A stretch of 64,000 nt of DNA, taken from Pseudomonadota bacterium. Lineage in GTDB: Bacteria > Pseudomonadota > Alphaproteobacteria > Acetobacterales > Acetobacteraceae. Under the pieces are notes generated by a model, which saw nothing but the letters and a program-made list of their open reading frames with translations, was not told where the DNA came from and searched no databases. Position 1 is the first letter of the stretch; the number at the start of each line of letters is the position of its first letter. This document shows positions 12,522 through 24,954 of the stretch, piece by piece. The stretch spans positions 1 through 64,000 of the forward strand of contig JAJXWD010000013.1 of the NCBI GenBank assembly GCA_021781835.1, given 5' to 3'. The position numbers and the translations under genes are program-made.

Positions 12522-13436
12522 ATGCCGGTCAATTCAGTGCTCGAAACCATTGGCAAGACGCCGCATATCCGGCTCAGCCGGCTGTTCCCCACGGCGCATG
12601 TGTGGGTGAAATCCGAGCGCGCCAACCCGGGCGGCTCGATCAAGGACCGCATCGCGCTGGCCATGATCGAGGCGGCCGAGGCCGATGGCCGGCTGCGGCC
12701 GGGCGGGCTGATCATCGAGCCGACCTCGGGCAATACCGGCGTTGGCCTGGCGCTGGTCGCGGCGGTGAAGGGGTATCGGCTGATCCTGGTCATGCCGGAG
12801 AGCATGTCAGTTGAGCGGCGGCGGCTGATGCAGGCTTACGGGGCGAGCTTCGACCTGACACCGCGCGAGAAGGGCATGAAAGGCGCCATTGCCCGCGCCG
12901 CCGAGCTGGCCGAGCAAAATCCCGGCGCCTTTGTGCCCCAGCAATTCGAGAACCCCGCCAATATCGACATCCACACCCGCACCACCGCGCTGGAAATTCT
13001 GGCCGATTTCCCGGCCGGGCTTGATTACATCATCACCGGCGTGGGCACGGGCGGGCACATCACCGGCATCGCCGAGGCGCTCAAAAAACACTGGCCGAAC
13101 CTGAAGGTGCTGGCCGTGGAGCCGGCCGCCTCGCCGGTGATTTCAGGCGGGGCGCCGGCGCCGCACCCGATTCAGGGCATCGGCGCCGGGTTCATCCCGG
13201 TCAATCTGCACACCGATGCCATTGACGGCGTGATCACGGTGGAAGGCGAGGAGGCCAAGGAATTCGCCCGCCGCTCGGCGCTGACCGAGGGGCTGCTGGT
13301 GGGCATTTCCTCGGGCGCCACGCTGGCCGCCATCGCCAAAAAGCTTCCCGAGCTGCCGGCCGGCGCGCGGGTGCTGGGCTTTAACTACGACACGGGCGAG
13401 CGCTATCTTTCGGTGCCTGATTTCCTGCCAACTTGA
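12522..13436 (+). CDS. cysK: Cysteine synthase (O-acetylserine sulfhydrylase), first paralogue
   Basis: A 304-residue PLP-dependent fold-type II enzyme. K41 in NPGGSIKDR is the Schiff-base lysine, [10 protein letters not shown] is the substrate-binding loop and [10 protein letters not shown] holds the PLP phosphate. It makes cysteine from O-acetylserine and sulfide. The ATG at 12522 has GGAGAAA just upstream; a GTG at 12510 is less likely. Its TGA lies inside an FNR-type box that precedes hemN. A second synthase gene is at 52703. The two differ clearly in sequence, so this is not a recent duplication. Confidence 0.92.
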
Positions 13437-13446
13437 CGTGAATCAA
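13433..13446 (+). promoter_or_regulatory. FNR-type box upstream of hemN
   Basis: TTGACGTGAATCAA matches the FNR consensus TTGAT-N4-ATCAA at 9 of 10 positions. Its centre is about 42 bp before the chosen hemN ATG (13482). An activator at the usual -41.5 position would therefore start transcription almost exactly at the ATG. It overlaps the cysK stop codon. Confidence 0.7.
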
Positions 13447-13481
13447 TGTCGGGACGGCGCGGGCCGGTCATGGTCCGCGCC

Positions 13482-14843
13482 ATGACCTCTGATGCCTCGC
13501 TGATCGCGCGCTACGATGCGCGCGTGCCCCGCTACACCAGCTACCCCACCGCGCCGCATTTCGCGCCGCTGGGGGATGAGACCTATGGCGGGTGGCTGGC
13601 GGCCATTCCCCGGGGGGCGGAGCTTTCGCTTTACGTGCATGTGCCGTTTTGCGACCGTCTGTGCCTCTATTGCGGCTGCAACACCGCCGTGGTGCGCCAG
13701 GAGCGGCCAAAACGCGCTTATGCGGCCAATCTCATCAAGGAGATCGGGCTGGTGGCGCAGCGCATCGGCGGGGCGGGGCGGGTGACGCATGTGCATTGGG
13801 GCGGCGGCACGCCCACCGCCCTGCCGGCCGATTGCATGGTCGCGGTGATGGCGGAGATTCGCGCCCGCTTCGCCATGCCCGCTGACGCCGAGGTGGCGAT
13901 CGAGATCGACCCCACCTCGCTCGATGCGGCGGCGCTGGCGGCGCTCAAGGAGATGGGGGTGACCCGCGCCAGCCTGGGGGTGCAGGATTTCGACCTCAAG
14001 GTGCAACAAGCCATCGGCCGCCACCAGAGTTTCGAGGAAACCCGCGCCGCCGCCGAGGCGCTGCGCGGGCTTGGCATCAACTCGCTCAATCTCGACCTGA
14101 TTTACGGCCTGCCAGAGCAGACCCCCGATTCGGTGCGCATCACCGCCTCGCGGGCGCTGGCGCTCGATGCCGACCGCATCGCGGTGTTTGGCTATGCCCA
14201 TGTGCCCTGGATGAAAAAGCACCAGGCGCTGATCGCCGATGAGACCCTGCCCGATGCCGCCTCGCGCCTCGCCCAGGCCAATGTCATCCGCGAAATCCTC
14301 GAGGGGCCGGGCGGTTATGTGGCGGTCGGGCTCGACCATTTCGCCAAACCGTCCGACAGCATGGCCCAGGCCATGAGCACGGGCACGCTGCACCGCTCCT
14401 TTCAGGGCTATACCACCGATGCCGCGCCGATCCTGATCGGGCTTGGGGCGTCGTCCATCGGCACGCTGCCCGCTGGGTATGCGCAAAACACGCCCTCGGT
14501 GTCCGCCTATAACGCCGCCATCGCGGCGGGCAGGCTGGCGGCGGCCAAGGGCGTGGCGCTAACGGCCGATGACCGGCTGCGGCGCGCGGTGATCGAGCGG
14601 ATCATGTGCGATCTGGCGGTGGATTTACCGGCCATGGCGGCGGCCTTTGGCGCCGACCCCGCGCCCCTGCTGCGCGATGGCGCGGGGGTGGCGCCCTTTG
14701 TCGCGGACGGGCTGGCGCGGTTTGACGGCGCGCGCCTGGAGGTGACCGAGCGCGGCCGGCCGTTTGTGCGCAACATTGCCGCGCTGTTCGATGTTTATTT
14801 GCAAAAGGGCGCCACGGCGCCCCGCCACGCCCAGGCTGTTTGA
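13482..14843 (+). CDS. hemN: Oxygen-independent coproporphyrinogen III oxidase (radical SAM)
   Basis: A 453-residue enzyme of anaerobic heme synthesis that decarboxylates coproporphyrinogen III. Residues 50-66 carry YVHVPFCDRLCLYCGC, with C57, C61 and C64 binding the radical-SAM 4Fe-4S cluster and C66 the extra conserved cysteine. PRYTSYPTA near the N-terminus is a HemN hallmark that separates it from HemW. The ATG at 13482 gives the family length; an in-frame ATG at 13446 lies inside the FNR box and is less likely. The ferritin-like gene follows 7 bp downstream and is probably co-transcribed. Confidence 0.93.
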   Translation: MTSDASLIARYDARVPRYTSYPTAPHFAPLGDETYGGWLAAIPRGAELSLYVHVPFCDRLCLYCGCNTAVVRQERPKRAYAANLIKEIGLVAQRIGGAGRVTHVHWGGGTPTALPADCMVAVMAEIRARFAMPADAEVAIEIDPTSLDAAALAALKEMGVTRASLGVQDFDLKVQQAIGRHQSFEETRAAAEALRGLGINSLNLDLIYGLPEQTPDSVRITASRALALDADRIAVFGYAHVPWMKKHQALIADETLPDAASRLAQANVIREILEGPGGYVAVGLDHFAKPSDSMAQAMSTGTLHRSFQGYTTDAAPILIGLGASSIGTLPAGYAQNTPSVSAYNAAIAAGRLAAAKGVALTADDRLRRAVIERIMCDLAVDLPAMAAAFGADPAPLLRDGAGVAPFVADGLARFDGARLEVTERGRPFVRNIAALFDVYLQKGATAPRHAQAV

Positions 14844-14850
14844 GGCTGCC

Positions 14851-15387
14851 ATGTCCCCACTTGCCGCTTCCTCCCCTTTTGCCCAGGAAATTTCAGGGCT
14901 GCGCGCGCGCGCGGCGGCGCTGATGCGGGGCGCTCCCGATCCCGCCCTGACCGACATACGCGCGCTGCTGCAAATGCTGCTCGAGGCCGAGCTGGTGTGC
15001 GCGCGGCGCTATGCGTCGCTGGCCCGGGCGCAGATCGAGGCCGGACACGACCGGCTGGGGGCGCTGTTTTTGGAGCAGGCCGAGGATGAGCTGCGCCACG
15101 CGCTGAAGCTGGGCGCGCGCATAGAGACGCTGGGCGGCGCGCCGTTCACCGGGCTCGATGATTGGGTGGCGGGAAGCATGGCGGTGGAGGCCGGGCGGCT
15201 CGAAATTGTCGCCGCCAACCTGCTCGGCGAGCGGGGCGTGATCAAGCTGTACCGCGCGGCGCTGCGCTATCTCGCCGGGCGCGACCGGGACAGCCGGGCG
15301 CTGCTGATGGCGCTGCTGGCCGATGAGGAGCGCCATATCGCCGGCATGGGCGAGCTGGTGGGCGGCCCCGCGCATCCCCTCCACTGA
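14851..15387 (+). CDS. Ferritin-like (diiron four-helix) protein
   Basis: A 178-residue mostly helical protein with glutamate/histidine motifs typical of ferritin-like diiron folds: LLEAELVCARRY, QAEDELRHALKLG and LLADEERHIAGMGEL. The three E...E-x-x-H type helices could bind two irons. The family includes iron stores, peroxidases and hydroxylases, and this sequence does not decide between them. The ATG at 14851 is 7 bp after hemN, so the pair is probably one FNR-controlled operon and an iron or oxygen role is likely. The frame extends upstream into hemN without similarity. Confidence 0.75.
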   Translation: MSPLAASSPFAQEISGLRARAAALMRGAPDPALTDIRALLQMLLEAELVCARRYASLARAQIEAGHDRLGALFLEQAEDELRHALKLGARIETLGGAPFTGLDDWVAGSMAVEAGRLEIVAANLLGERGVIKLYRAALRYLAGRDRDSRALLMALLADEERHIAGMGELVGGPAHPLH

Positions 15388-15480: not shown

Positions 15481-15632
15481 GTCTCCACGGAACCCCCTCC
15501 GTACGCAAAAAAGCAATCAATATCAATTAACTGCCCCCTGAAAACGGCGCCCCAGGCGGCTCCCCGTGAGGGCGGTGTATCGTTTGCGAGGCGGTTGCAA
15601 CGCGCCGCGAGCTGCGCTAACCTGGCTGTCAT

Positions 15633-15696
15633 AAAAAAAATCCTGTCGTGGAGTCCACGACAGGATTAAGTCTGGGGAGTGTATCCGCTTTGGGAT
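15633..15696 (-). ncRNA. Predicted FNR-controlled small RNA (about 64 nt)
   Basis: On the minus strand a perfect FNR box (15731-15744) is followed at the proper distance by a -10-like CATAAA (15708-15703) and an A at 15696 as the expected start. The transcript then reads 64 nt to a strong terminator: a stem AATCCTGTCGTGGA / TCCACGACAGGATT (15667-15639) and eight Ts. No gene on this strand uses that terminator. The 5' part is unstructured and contains ACACTCCCCAG, resembling anti-Shine-Dalgarno motifs of alphaproteobacterial sRNAs. FnrS of E. coli is the functional parallel, without sequence similarity that I can see. Ends are predicted. Confidence 0.62.
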
Positions 15697-15730
15697 GACC
15701 TGTTTATGGTCATTTCCCCGGGCCCGGTCC

Positions 15731-15744
15731 TTGATTCAAATCAA
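15731..15744 (-). promoter_or_regulatory. Perfect FNR box in front of predicted sRNA
   Basis: TTGATTCAAATCAA matches TTGAT-N4-ATCAA at every conserved position. It lies beyond the 3' end of the CBS-BON gene, so it cannot drive that gene. Read on the minus strand it is centred at -41.5 relative to 15696, the predicted sRNA start. Confidence 0.75.
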
Positions 15745-15777
15745 ACACTGATCGTTCCGGCGTTTTTTCCGTAAAAT

Positions 15778-16479
15778 TCATTCGGCGCGCAGCGTGTGGG
15801 CACGCGCCGGCTCGTTGACCCGCAAGGCATCAACGACATGTTTCACCCCCTTGGTATTTTGCGCCAGCACCCGCAGGGCGCGCGCCTCGGCGCTCGAGAA
15901 AACCTGGCCTTCAAGCCGCACGCAGCCCGCTTGCACGGCATAGCGTACCCCGCTTTGGGGCGCCCAGGGCTGGCTGGCGAGCGCACTGGCTATGGCGGCG
16001 TGGATTTCATCGTCGGGGGCTTCGCCATTATGCTCGGGCAGGCGGGCGCTCAGCGCGGTGAGCAGGTCGAAGCGGGTGAGCATGCCCACCAGACGCTCGG
16101 CGCGGAGCACCGGCAGGCGCTTGACCCGCCGCCCGATCATCAGCTCGGTGGCTTTGGTCAGGCTCATTTCGGGGCGGATGAACACGGGGTTGGGGGTCAT
16201 CACATCGCCCACAAAGCGGCTGTTGGTATGGGCATAGGCGCTGGCGAGGTCAGCGCTGGTGGCCAGGCCCTTGAGCCAGCCGGCTTGGCGCCCGCCAGTG
16301 CCGAGTTCGGGCCGGCGCAGCAAATCGCCCTCGGTCAAAATGCCGGCCAGGCGGTCGGTGCCATCGAGCACCGGCACGCCGCTGATATGGCGGGTAACCA
16401 TCAGCCGCGCGGCGGCGGCCAGGCTGGTGGTGGTCACGACCGTGGTGACCTCACGCGACATGACATCGGCAACGATCAT
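15778..16479 (-). CDS. Two CBS domains plus BON domain protein
   Basis: A 233-residue protein. CBS domain 1 covers about residues 1-60 (VADVMSREV...GILTEGDLL), CBS domain 2 about 90-145 (VGDVMTPNP...GMLTRFDLL), and a C-terminal BON domain about 160-225 (VQAGCVRLEGQVFS). CBS pairs bind adenine nucleotides and BON domains bind membranes or other proteins. The function of this fusion is unknown, though relatives are often induced at low oxygen. The ATG at 16479 starts the CBS motif; a TTG at 16500 is less likely. An FNR-like box is centred 66 bp upstream of the ATG, implying a 24-nt leader. Confidence 0.87.
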   Translation of the reverse strand: MIVADVMSREVTTVVTTTSLAAAARLMVTRHISGVPVLDGTDRLAGILTEGDLLRRPELGTGGRQAGWLKGLATSADLASAYAHTNSRFVGDVMTPNPVFIRPEMSLTKATELMIGRRVKRLPVLRAERLVGMLTRFDLLTALSARLPEHNGEAPDDEIHAAIASALASQPWAPQSGVRYAVQAGCVRLEGQVFSSAEARALRVLAQNTKGVKHVVDALRVNEPARAHTLRAE

Positions 16480-16537
16480 GGCTGCGGCGCCTTTTCGCAA
16501 AGGCGCTCAGCTAGAGGGAGGGCGGGAGGGCTTGTCC

Positions 16538-16551
16538 TTGATGCAGGTCAA
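16538..16551 (-). promoter_or_regulatory. FNR-type box upstream of the CBS-BON gene
   Basis: TTGATGCAGGTCAA matches the FNR consensus at 9 of 10 positions. At the class II spacing, transcription would start near 16503, with a weak -10 TCTAGC at 16515-16510. It is the third FNR-type site within 3.1 kb. Confidence 0.55.
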
Positions 16552-18616: not shown

Positions 18617-18738
18617 GGAAATCCCCCGCCCCACGATGCCAGCATGGCGGCTCTGGGTCAATAACACTTTGCCCGGCCACGAAATTTCCATCCGCTCCGG
18701 CTGCCCCGCCCGGAACAAGGGCGGCGCTGGAAAAAAGT

Positions 18739-18891
18739 GGAGCCGCCCTGGCCGTTGGCGTGTCCATCCACCCAAGGCCTGCTAGTGCAGGTGGGCGCCA
18801 GATACCCAGGCCACGGCCTGGGCAGTGCCAGCTCCCTTGGGAGATGCTTAACGGCCCCGGGGATGATAGGCCTGACGCACCGGGCAGCTCC
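18739..18891 (-). ncRNA. ssrS: 6S RNA
   Basis: About 153 nt on the minus strand, starting 10 bp after the zapA stop. The 5' end GGAGCTGCCC pairs with the 3' end GGGCGGCTCC to form the terminal stem. The middle contains long complementary arms (GCCCAGGCC / GGCCTGGG) around an open bubble, the open-promoter mimic that binds sigma-70 RNA polymerase. A run of six Ts follows the closing stem. The position directly downstream of zapA is the conserved alphaproteobacterial location. Exact ends come from the stem, not from data. Confidence 0.87.
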
Positions 18892-18900
18892 GAATCCTAT

Positions 18901-23935: not shown

Positions 23936-24954
23936 GCGCCCCGCCCCCCTTCACCCTGCACCGTCCGGCGCGCCAGCGCGCGGCCCTGGTGCTCACCTCG
24001 CCCCATTCCGGGCGCCTCTACAGCGCCGCCTTCCTGGCCGGCTCGCGCCTCGATGCCCAGGCCATCCGCCGCTCCGAGGATTGCTTCGTCGATGAGCTGT
24101 TCGCCGCCGCCCCCGCGCTCGGCGTGCCCCTGCTCGCCGCCACCTTCCCCCGCGCCTATTGCGACGCCAACCGCGAAGCCTGGGAGCTCGACCCCGCGAT
24201 GTTCTCAGACCCCCTGCCCCCCTATGCCAACACCAGCTCGCCGCGCGTGGCCGCCGGGCTTGGTACCATCGCGCGCATCGTCGGCACCTCCGAGCCCATT
24301 TACGGCCGCCGTCTCAGCTTCGCCGAGGCGCGGGCGCGCATCGAGCAATGCTGGCAGCCCTTCCACGCCGCGCTGCAAGCGCTGATCTCCGAAACCGTCA
24401 CCGAATTCGGCCATTGCCTGGTGCTGGACTGCCACTCCATGCCCTCCGCCCCTGGCCGCGCCGGCCCCCGCGCCGAGCTGGTGCTGGGCGATGGCCACGG
24501 CGAATCCTGCGCCCCCGCCTGGAGCCGCTTCGTGGCCGCCGAGTTCACCGCCCTGGGGCTGAAAGTGCGCCGCAACGACCCCTATGCCGGCGGCTACATC
24601 ACCCGCCATTACGGCCGCCCGGCCGCGGGCGTGCAGGTCATGCAGATCGAGCTGGCGCGCGGGCTCTACATGCATGAGCGCCAGTTTCTCAAACATGCCG
24701 GGTTCGAGGATCTGCGCGCCCGCCTCACCCGCTTCCTCGAAACCATGCGCGATGCCGTGCGCCAGTTCGGCGCCCCCGGCCCCGAGGCGCGCGCCGCCGC
24801 CGAAGAGCCCGCCCCCCCCAAACCCCCCCCCCAACCGCGCGTGGGAGAAAAAAAGCGGCGAAAAAAAAAGGCGGCGCAAAAATGCGCCGCCAAGTTTAGG
24901 GAGGAAACGTCCAAGAAACAGGGGAGAAAACTCACCCTGTGCCTCAATATGTAG
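23932..24954 (+). CDS. N-formylglutamate amidohydrolase family protein with odd C-terminal extension
   Basis: A 340-residue open frame. Residues 1 to about 275 match the FGase family (LTSPHSGRLY, DCFVDELF, CHSMPS, GGYITRHYG), including presumed zinc ligands His and Glu. The family hydrolyses N-formylglutamate and related N-acyl amino acids. The last 65 or so residues are abnormal: proline-rich from C8 and C11 tracts, then Lys/Arg-rich from poly-A. They are encoded by DNA that reads as a strong terminator on the other strand. The true C-terminus may therefore lie earlier, through a homopolymer indel, real or from sequencing. Confidence 0.8.
   Translation: MSAPPPFTLHRPARQRAALVLTSPHSGRLYSAAFLAGSRLDAQAIRRSEDCFVDELFAAAPALGVPLLAATFPRAYCDANREAWELDPAMFSDPLPPYANTSSPRVAAGLGTIARIVGTSEPIYGRRLSFAEARARIEQCWQPFHAALQALISETVTEFGHCLVLDCHSMPSAPGRAGPRAELVLGDGHGESCAPAWSRFVAAEFTALGLKVRRNDPYAGGYITRHYGRPAAGVQVMQIELARGLYMHERQFLKHAGFEDLRARLTRFLETMRDAVRQFGAPGPEARAAAEEPAPPKPPPQPRVGEKKRRKKKAAQKCAAKFREETSKKQGRKLTLCLNM
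24862..24945 (-). ncRNA. Predicted small RNA ending in a strong terminator
   Basis: The minus strand carries a textbook terminator: GGCGGCGCA-TTT-TGCGCCGCC (24890-24870) followed by nine Ts. No minus-strand gene lies upstream before the tRNA-Ser region, so a short independent transcript is likely. Just before the stem comes GTTTCCTCCCTAAACTT, with an anti-Shine-Dalgarno-like CCTCCC. A possible -35 TTGCAG lies near 24979 with TACATA-like sequence about 17 bp on. The start near 24945 is a guess. The inverted repeat GCTGCAA...TTGCAGC at about 24967-24998 could bind a regulator. Confidence 0.42.

Follow-up and report, generated by a model that had tools for sequence, protein, structure and literature searches.

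Does the minus strand of positions 15633-15744 carry a free-standing small RNA (sRNA) gene under the control of FNR, and if so, to which known sRNAs is its product related? The interval lies in a 64,000-nt stretch of an Acidocella genome, referred to here as the window. We consider it well supported, and probable on balance, that the locus encodes an FNR-activated, alphaR8-like trans-acting sRNA that represses mRNAs at their ribosome-binding sites at low oxygen and that probably represents a branch of the alphaR8 class. Comparison between genomes supports the architecture, the promoter register, the covariation and the co-occurrence with FNR. To our knowledge, FNR-controlled sRNAs have been worked out in few bacteria only. 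The features of the locus are as follows.

15731-15744, minus strand: FNR box, TTGATTTGAATCAA in the minus-strand reading, from -48 to -35 with its centre at -41.5
15703-15708, minus strand: -10 element CATAAA, from -12 to -7 when 15696 is taken as +1
15633-15696, minus strand: predicted 64-nt sRNA, +1 A at 15696 (17-row alignment and match to model R2)
15683-15696, minus strand: 5' hairpin, +1 to +4 paired with +11 to +14 (fold and covariation)
15673-15682, minus strand: unpaired ACACUCCCCA, predicted anti-Shine-Dalgarno seed (fold and 17-row alignment)
15633-15667, minus strand: intrinsic terminator, hairpin 15667-15639 and 8-T run 15640-15633 (fold and covariation)
15778-16500, minus strand: CBS-BON protein gene (PF00571, PF04972), same strand as the sRNA and upstream of it
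14854-15387, plus strand: ferritin-like protein gene (PF00210), convergent to the sRNA
13446-14843, plus strand: hemN-like gene (PF04055, PF06969), anaerobic coproporphyrinogen oxidase-type radical SAM, convergent to the sRNA
24855-24926, minus strand: canonical alphaR8 (MmgR, Rfam RF00519 suhB) sRNA, 51.9 bits, used as a comparison object

Read along the minus strand, the FNR box (15744-15731) precedes CATAAA (15708-15703), the predicted start A (15696) and the RNA end (15633). The sequence-only reading had called the box perfect and the -10 element in register with it, and both descriptions hold: TTGATTCAAATCAA at 15731-15744 is the sole exact match to TTGATNNNNATCAA in the whole window, and its centre lies at -41.5 from 15696. 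With up to one mismatch allowed, the box pattern matched three times in the window, compared with 0.64 on average over 100 shuffles, three of which reached three matches. In the fold of the predicted RNA, a 5' hairpin of 4 bp is followed by an unpaired stretch containing ACACUCCCCAGACUU, a terminator hairpin of 13 bp and eight Us. The terminator reaches -23.8 kcal/mol (z -5.24; 0 of 200 shuffles equally good); the hairpin and eight Ts described earlier were recovered, with a stem of 13 pairs rather than 14. At gathering cut-offs, no Rfam family covered the 15633-15696 RNA in a search of the window. The statement that no gene on this strand uses any of these elements goes too far. The CBS-BON gene, which lies upstream on the same strand, stops at 15778, 33 nt before the FNR box, and its mRNA may share the sRNA terminator. 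Several other elements were seen in the window. An FNR box with one mismatch, TTGATGCAGGTCAA, lies at 16538-16551 upstream of the CBS-BON gene, which may also belong to the FNR regulon judging by this site, and another, TTGACGTGAATCAA, at 13433-13446 overlaps the start of the hemN-like gene. A palindrome, ATGACC-N7-GGTCAT, spans the -10 region at 15695-15713; a mismatch breaks it in the best-matching relative (G007), and it is probably due to chance. A 6S RNA (RF00013, 69.4 bits) at 18736-18893 on the minus strand adjoins an HU-like gene (PF00216).

A DNA search with 15600-15790 gave matches in 18 of 147 genomes, including the window's own, all from the single genus Acidocella; one of these genomes, G005, matched at the CBS-BON end only. 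In NCBI, Acidocella is placed in Acetobacterales, Acidocellaceae, and the family of the genome searches described below is a wider group. Loci L018 and L019 (CBS-BON end; terminator on the opposite strand) were excluded before counting. The aligned loci share a block, ATCC[CG]NAAGCGGATACACTCCCC, that has few variants, lies behind an FNR box and begins exactly at the predicted +1. Within this block the unpaired ACACUCCCC is invariant in the 17 alignment rows of the main group, its last A being kept in 16 of 17. Two models were used for further searches, R1 being built from the transcript only (17 rows) and R2 with the promoter included (25 rows). At E<=1.4e-4, R1 found seven new loci, none of which had been used in building it, and all seven carry an FNR box. 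Among its weaker matches, L163 (E 0.009) has a box, which is missing from L161 (E 0.001) and L162 (E 0.003). Model R2 found 26 loci in 25 of 38 Acidocella genomes at E<=1.4e-12, and these are the members counted here; because 25 of the 26 built R2, it is the R1 test that supports the box independently. The window locus itself, which is among the model rows, scored 102.4 bits (E 1.3e-18), and two near-identical copies on short contigs of G016 were counted as two loci in one genome. It had been stated beforehand that the proposal would be refuted if close relatives failed to conserve the box and the terminator, and the locus passed this test in these 25 genomes. The conserved sRNA is predicted in named acidophiles, i.e. 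A. aromatica, A. aminolytica and A. aquatica.

The sRNA is absent from 13 of the 38 genomes. In G013 (L164) and G015 (L162), an sRNA-like element without an FNR box lies beside cysK, and the sequence fetched around it has no hemN match; the sRNA gene may have decayed or been rewired there. Separately, locus L238 of G002 (contig C77, 19939-20017) has an FNR box, a TATAGT-like -10 element and an sRNA-like ATCCC start, and in place of the terminator come a short tandem repeat and then a coding start.

The position of the box is fixed relative to the RNA. From the end of TTGATNNNN[AG]TCAA to the conserved RTCC, the distance is 34 nt in 20 loci and 33 nt in six, which would place the box centre at -41.5 or -40.5 if the RNA starts at RTCC. 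An A/T-rich hexamer stands at the -10 place in most of the other Acidocella sRNA loci. A box near -41.5 together with a -10 element is the arrangement of a class II promoter, here with a start site predicted from the alignment. A pattern combining box and hairpin matched in 26 of 38 Acidocella genomes, at the sRNA in 24 and elsewhere in two (G002, G015), and read backwards it matched in 0 of 38. With the box at a constant position in 26 loci and no match to the reversed pattern, the unit of box, -10 element, RNA and terminator is beyond chance.

Both stems of the RNA covary. Over 25 rows, 98.6% of the cells in the structure are paired and both partners change in 8 of 12 pairs, and neither value was reached in 500 shuffles; the count of pair types was reached in 16 of the 500. 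Slid versions of the structure paired 30-48% of cells. Two-sided changes affect three of the four pairs of the 5' hairpin and five of the eight counted terminator pairs. Those in the 5' hairpin come from three rows only, with A-U replaced by G-C in G001 and G005 and a shifted hairpin in G004.

The earlier suggestion of linkage to CBS-BON genes holds in the window and in few other places, an upstream CBS-BON gene on the same strand being present in 6 of 26 loci and a ferritin-like gene in between in four of 26. The constant neighbour is a hemN homologue, convergent to the sRNA in 24 of 26 loci; at G014 and G004 none was found within the fetched stretch. The seed varies, with ACUUUCCC in the G006 clade and CUUUCCUCC in G001 and G005, and the convergent hemN homologue therefore identifies these members as the same gene by position. 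In one clade, all five genomes (G006, G010, G018, G027 and G031; loci L381, L345, L348, L380 and L339, respectively) carry fnr, an ompW-like gene and the sRNA on one strand. This fnr is cysteine-bearing and lies two genes upstream of the sRNA, with the ompW-like gene (assigned to OmpW by Pfam in G006) in between and ending ~75 nt before the sRNA start. Each of the three has its own FNR box in 5/5 genomes, an arrangement that may place fnr itself, and also the ompW-like gene, under FNR control.

If the box is functional, a suitable FNR protein should accompany it. FNR was called in the 38 genomes from fetched HTH_Crp_2 hits by the recognition helix ETVSR and the cysteine pattern C-X2-C-X7-C. 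Cysteine FNR was present in 30 of 38 genomes, namely 24 of 25 with the sRNA versus 6 of 13 without it (Fisher p 9e-4, a value weakened by relatedness and incomplete assemblies). The sole sRNA genome without cysteine FNR, G029, is 85% complete. These counts leave out 13 HTH_Crp_2 hits weaker than 2e-9, and 19 of the 81 fetched loci have no frame with the helix motif, so divergent FNR proteins may be missed. The window genome (G000) encodes on contig C23 an FNR with both ETVSR and the cysteines CDDCAARHHGLC as Fe-S ligands.

We propose that 15633-15696 on the minus strand is a free-standing trans-acting sRNA gene that would work as follows. As oxygen falls, Fe-S-cluster FNR would bind the box at -41.5 and activate transcription from 15696 in the manner of a class II promoter. 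The resulting 64-nt RNA would comprise a weak 5' hairpin, ACACUCCCCA in an exposed position and a terminator hairpin that ends in a U tail. Its C-rich stretch would pair with Shine-Dalgarno regions, repressing translation of a set of mRNAs in the manner of the alphaR8 RNAs SisA and MmgR, and its role in Acidocella would be the counterpart of that of FnrS in E. coli. It would probably trace back to the alphaR8 class, as a diverged branch captured by FNR. What we infer in this model is that the gene is transcribed, that oxygen controls it, that the RNA depends on Hfq and acts on targets, and that it stems from alphaR8.

Two other readings would do away with a regulatory RNA altogether. The hairpin could simply be the terminator of the upstream gene, here CBS-BON, with the FNR box a chance or unrelated element. 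The CBS-BON mRNA would indeed reach the hairpin, its gene ending so close before the box on the same strand, but that gene is upstream in too few loci for this to hold generally; moreover, the box keeps its distance in all 26 loci and was present at every one of the seven loci found without using it, and conservation is strongest in the unpaired 5' stretch rather than in the terminator. We judge this explanation very improbable. Even less credence is given to a small-protein gene in place of a non-coding RNA. In the window genome, a 15-codon ATG frame does run from upstream of +1 to the base of the terminator, but its ATG overlies the -10 element, upstream of the predicted start, and just 5 of 26 loci have any ATG between -23 and +3.

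On the side of the targets, CUCCCC had been singled out as able to pair with ribosome-binding sites. It is unpaired in the fold and invariant in the main group, and such pairing is plausible; we infer that an invariant, unpaired C-rich stretch is a natural seed for Shine-Dalgarno regions. The pattern TGGGGAGTG-N0..12-ATG gave 29 matches in 17 genomes and its reversed form 11; for GGGGAGTG-N0..12-ATG in eight genomes the corresponding numbers were 93 and 38. An excess over the reversed pattern is expected because the word is Shine-Dalgarno-like before ATG. When 53 frames of at least 70 residues from the loci read were clustered, seven two-genome groups and none larger were obtained, with no conserved target set. 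G000/G007 and G012/G034, pairs with very similar sRNA loci, account for five of the seven, and G012/G017 for one. The remaining group, in G035 and G037, is a molybdopterin-oxidoreductase-like protein, as read from its sequence. Targets and low-oxygen repression are accordingly proposed by analogy with FnrS, with SisA and with the FNR promoter.

The RNA resembles the alphaR8 class (MmgR of Sinorhizobium meliloti, SisA-D of Caulobacter crescentus), which excerpts of PMC12559287 define by a weak hairpin, an unpaired 10-mer, UUUCCUCCCU, and a terminator; SisA is described there as repressing mRNAs through that 10-mer, at the ribosome-binding site. Acidocella members share this layout, with a weak hairpin upstream of an unpaired C-rich anti-Shine-Dalgarno stretch and a Rho-independent terminator downstream, and some share the run CUCCCCAAACUUGGC or UUUCCUCC...AAACUUGGC. 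They differ in having an FNR promoter, in lacking the exact 10-mer, in place of which they carry ACACUCCCCA, ACACUCCCCU, ACUUUCCCAA, CUUUCCUCCA or ACACUCCCGG, and in falling under the Rfam cut-off. For RF00519 that cut-off is 41 bits, and four of 20 loci were listed at E<=5 with 21.5-27.9 bits. The Acidocella scores (27.9 for G007, 26.8 for G017) overlap background, and FNR-driven RNAs of G375 and G398 scored 40.7 and 35.4 bits. At E<=1, RF00519 also matched in 13 of 14 control genomes, in one of them over the cut-off. Canonical alphaR8 copies are a separate matter: each of the 34 genomes tested has at least one match over the cut-off, and the 10-mer is present in the 30 loci fetched. No FNR box was seen in the upstream sequence read for the canonical copy at 24855-24926. 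A second over-cut-off copy lies on contig C48 of the window genome.

Whether this likeness reflects descent was assessed against 300 shuffles. The 5' part of the window sRNA scored 14 against alphaR8, a value reached by 18% of shuffles and not significant. Eleven of 26 members were matched by at most three shuffles: none was as good for G001/G005 (score 29), G024/G037/G021 (25), G033 and G035, and two or three were for G012, G017, G034 and G029. The other 15, the window's included, did not rise above the shuffles, and the Acidocella sRNA is therefore called alphaR8-like on sequence grounds and not a member of the class. A genuine FNR-driven sRNA of other origin, which converged on an anti-Shine-Dalgarno C-rich loop, would agree with those 15 members, with the low RF00519 scores, with the missing 10-mer and with the FNR-driven RNAs of other genera, which have no hemN homologue within flanks of up to 1.5 kb a side. 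Against it stand the scores of the syntenic G001/G005 and of G024/G037/G021, equalled by 0 of 300 shuffles each, and the exact 10-mer in the FNR-driven RNAs of g152 and g115. We regard such convergence as a real but doubtful possibility. It is unlikely that the sRNA acts on RNA regulators instead, whether as prey or partner of an alphaR8 sponge or as a competitor that frees canonical alphaR8 RNAs. An alphaR8 sponge, CrfA, is described for Caulobacter in excerpts of PMC12559287; the unpaired stretch here is C-rich and not G/A-rich as in CrfA, so the RNA would not be an alphaR8 sponge by that pairing. We retain the alphaR8-like trans-acting sRNA as the preferred reading. With regard to the proposal of an independently evolved anaerobic sRNA, the absence of an Rfam FnrS match agrees with it, but the RNA may be an alphaR8 offshoot; independent evolution would then likely mean derivation from that class, not origin from nothing.

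The same design appears beyond Acidocella. In 397 family genomes, R2 found promoter-bearing loci in three other genera; it matched in 12 genomes outside Acidocella, and among ten loci read, seven have the box and three do not. The pattern box-N50..80-CTCCC-N1..3-RACT occurred in 26 of the 397 genomes (Acidocella 7, g152 5, g156 8, g115 4, g116 1 and g118 1) and its reversed control in none. Across the class it matched in four of 385 genomes, one being the window's own and three lying outside the family. Those three lack a terminator with a T run and were taken as chance, the g118 match (G276) was taken as probable chance, and weak R1 hits outside the genus (17 loci read) were not counted, having no FNR box in register; they resemble canonical alphaR8, other terminators or the ends of coding regions. 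The same layout was recognized at 19 loci in four other genera (g152, g156, g115 and g116, including the g116 locus L234 found by R2). When 34 nt are counted from the box, pairing starts at +1 to +4 in all 19, a test that separates little, as the four rejected loci begin at +4, +4, +24 and +5. A run of at least four Ts follows the hairpin in 18 of the 19, the last having T5 short of the searched stretch, and in none of the four rejected loci; it is the C-rich motif and the terminator, not the fold start, that separate the two sets. The exact alphaR8 10-mer is present in 9/9 FNR-driven RNAs of g152 and g115; those of g156 carry CUCCUCCCC in 8/8 without the exact 10-mer, and the two of g116 have neither. 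In the g156 RNAs (L232, L235, L290-L295), CUCCUCC sits in the loop of a UUGG/CCAA mini-hairpin, the corresponding stretch being open in Acidocella.

These observations raise the idea that FNR repeatedly captured copies of the near-universal alphaproteobacterial alphaR8 RNA in Acetobacterales, in at least five genera, apparently at different loci and with one promoter geometry. Each capture would have yielded a sibling switched by oxygen, which would share targets with canonical alphaR8 or compete with it for them. We hold this tentatively, as a reading with slightly less in its favour than against it; if true, one seed class would receive two environmental inputs in the same cell. More generally, the alphaR8 likeness suggests that a new promoter alone is enough to bring an ancient anti-Shine-Dalgarno sRNA under a new signal, and such rewiring is testable in a genome that carries both canonical and FNR-driven copies. 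The predicted sRNA also offers a direct test of how functions are cut back without oxygen in this order. Open-access literature searches returned no report of FNR control over an sRNA in Acidocella or Acetobacteraceae. Within the reach of those searches, four things are new: the family of sRNAs, the constant geometry of its promoter, its linkage to hemN and the class of FNR-driven, alphaR8-like RNAs.

Among known systems, FnrS is comparable in proposed function. The Acidocella sRNA is presumably shorter than FnrS and has another seed, and Rfam FnrS had no match in the window at gathering cut-offs or, at E<=5, in 20 loci of relatives plus the window. FnrS of Escherichia coli is presented in excerpts of PMC8139620 as an FNR-activated sRNA that lowers functions dispensable without oxygen, and by analogy the Acidocella RNA would likewise be an FNR-activated repressor. 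The promoters of the canonical relatives are of other kinds as far as excerpts of PMC12559287 and PMC7143759 go, in which no motif is common to the sisA-D promoters and MmgR is linked with NtrC and AniA. PcrZ, RSs0019 and RSs2461 of Rhodobacter sphaeroides are also alphaproteobacterial sRNAs under low-oxygen control, the latter two with FnrL ChIP-seq sites at their putative promoters (excerpts of PMC4263372). They belong to another bacterial order and are likened to the Acidocella sRNA by control, not by sequence. Unpaired C-rich seeds are found in RoxS/RsaE as well. This redox-controlled sRNA of Bacillus subtilis and Staphylococcus aureus (excerpts of PMC8139620) is under ResDE control in another phylum, and it is likened to the Acidocella sRNA by its type of control and of seed.
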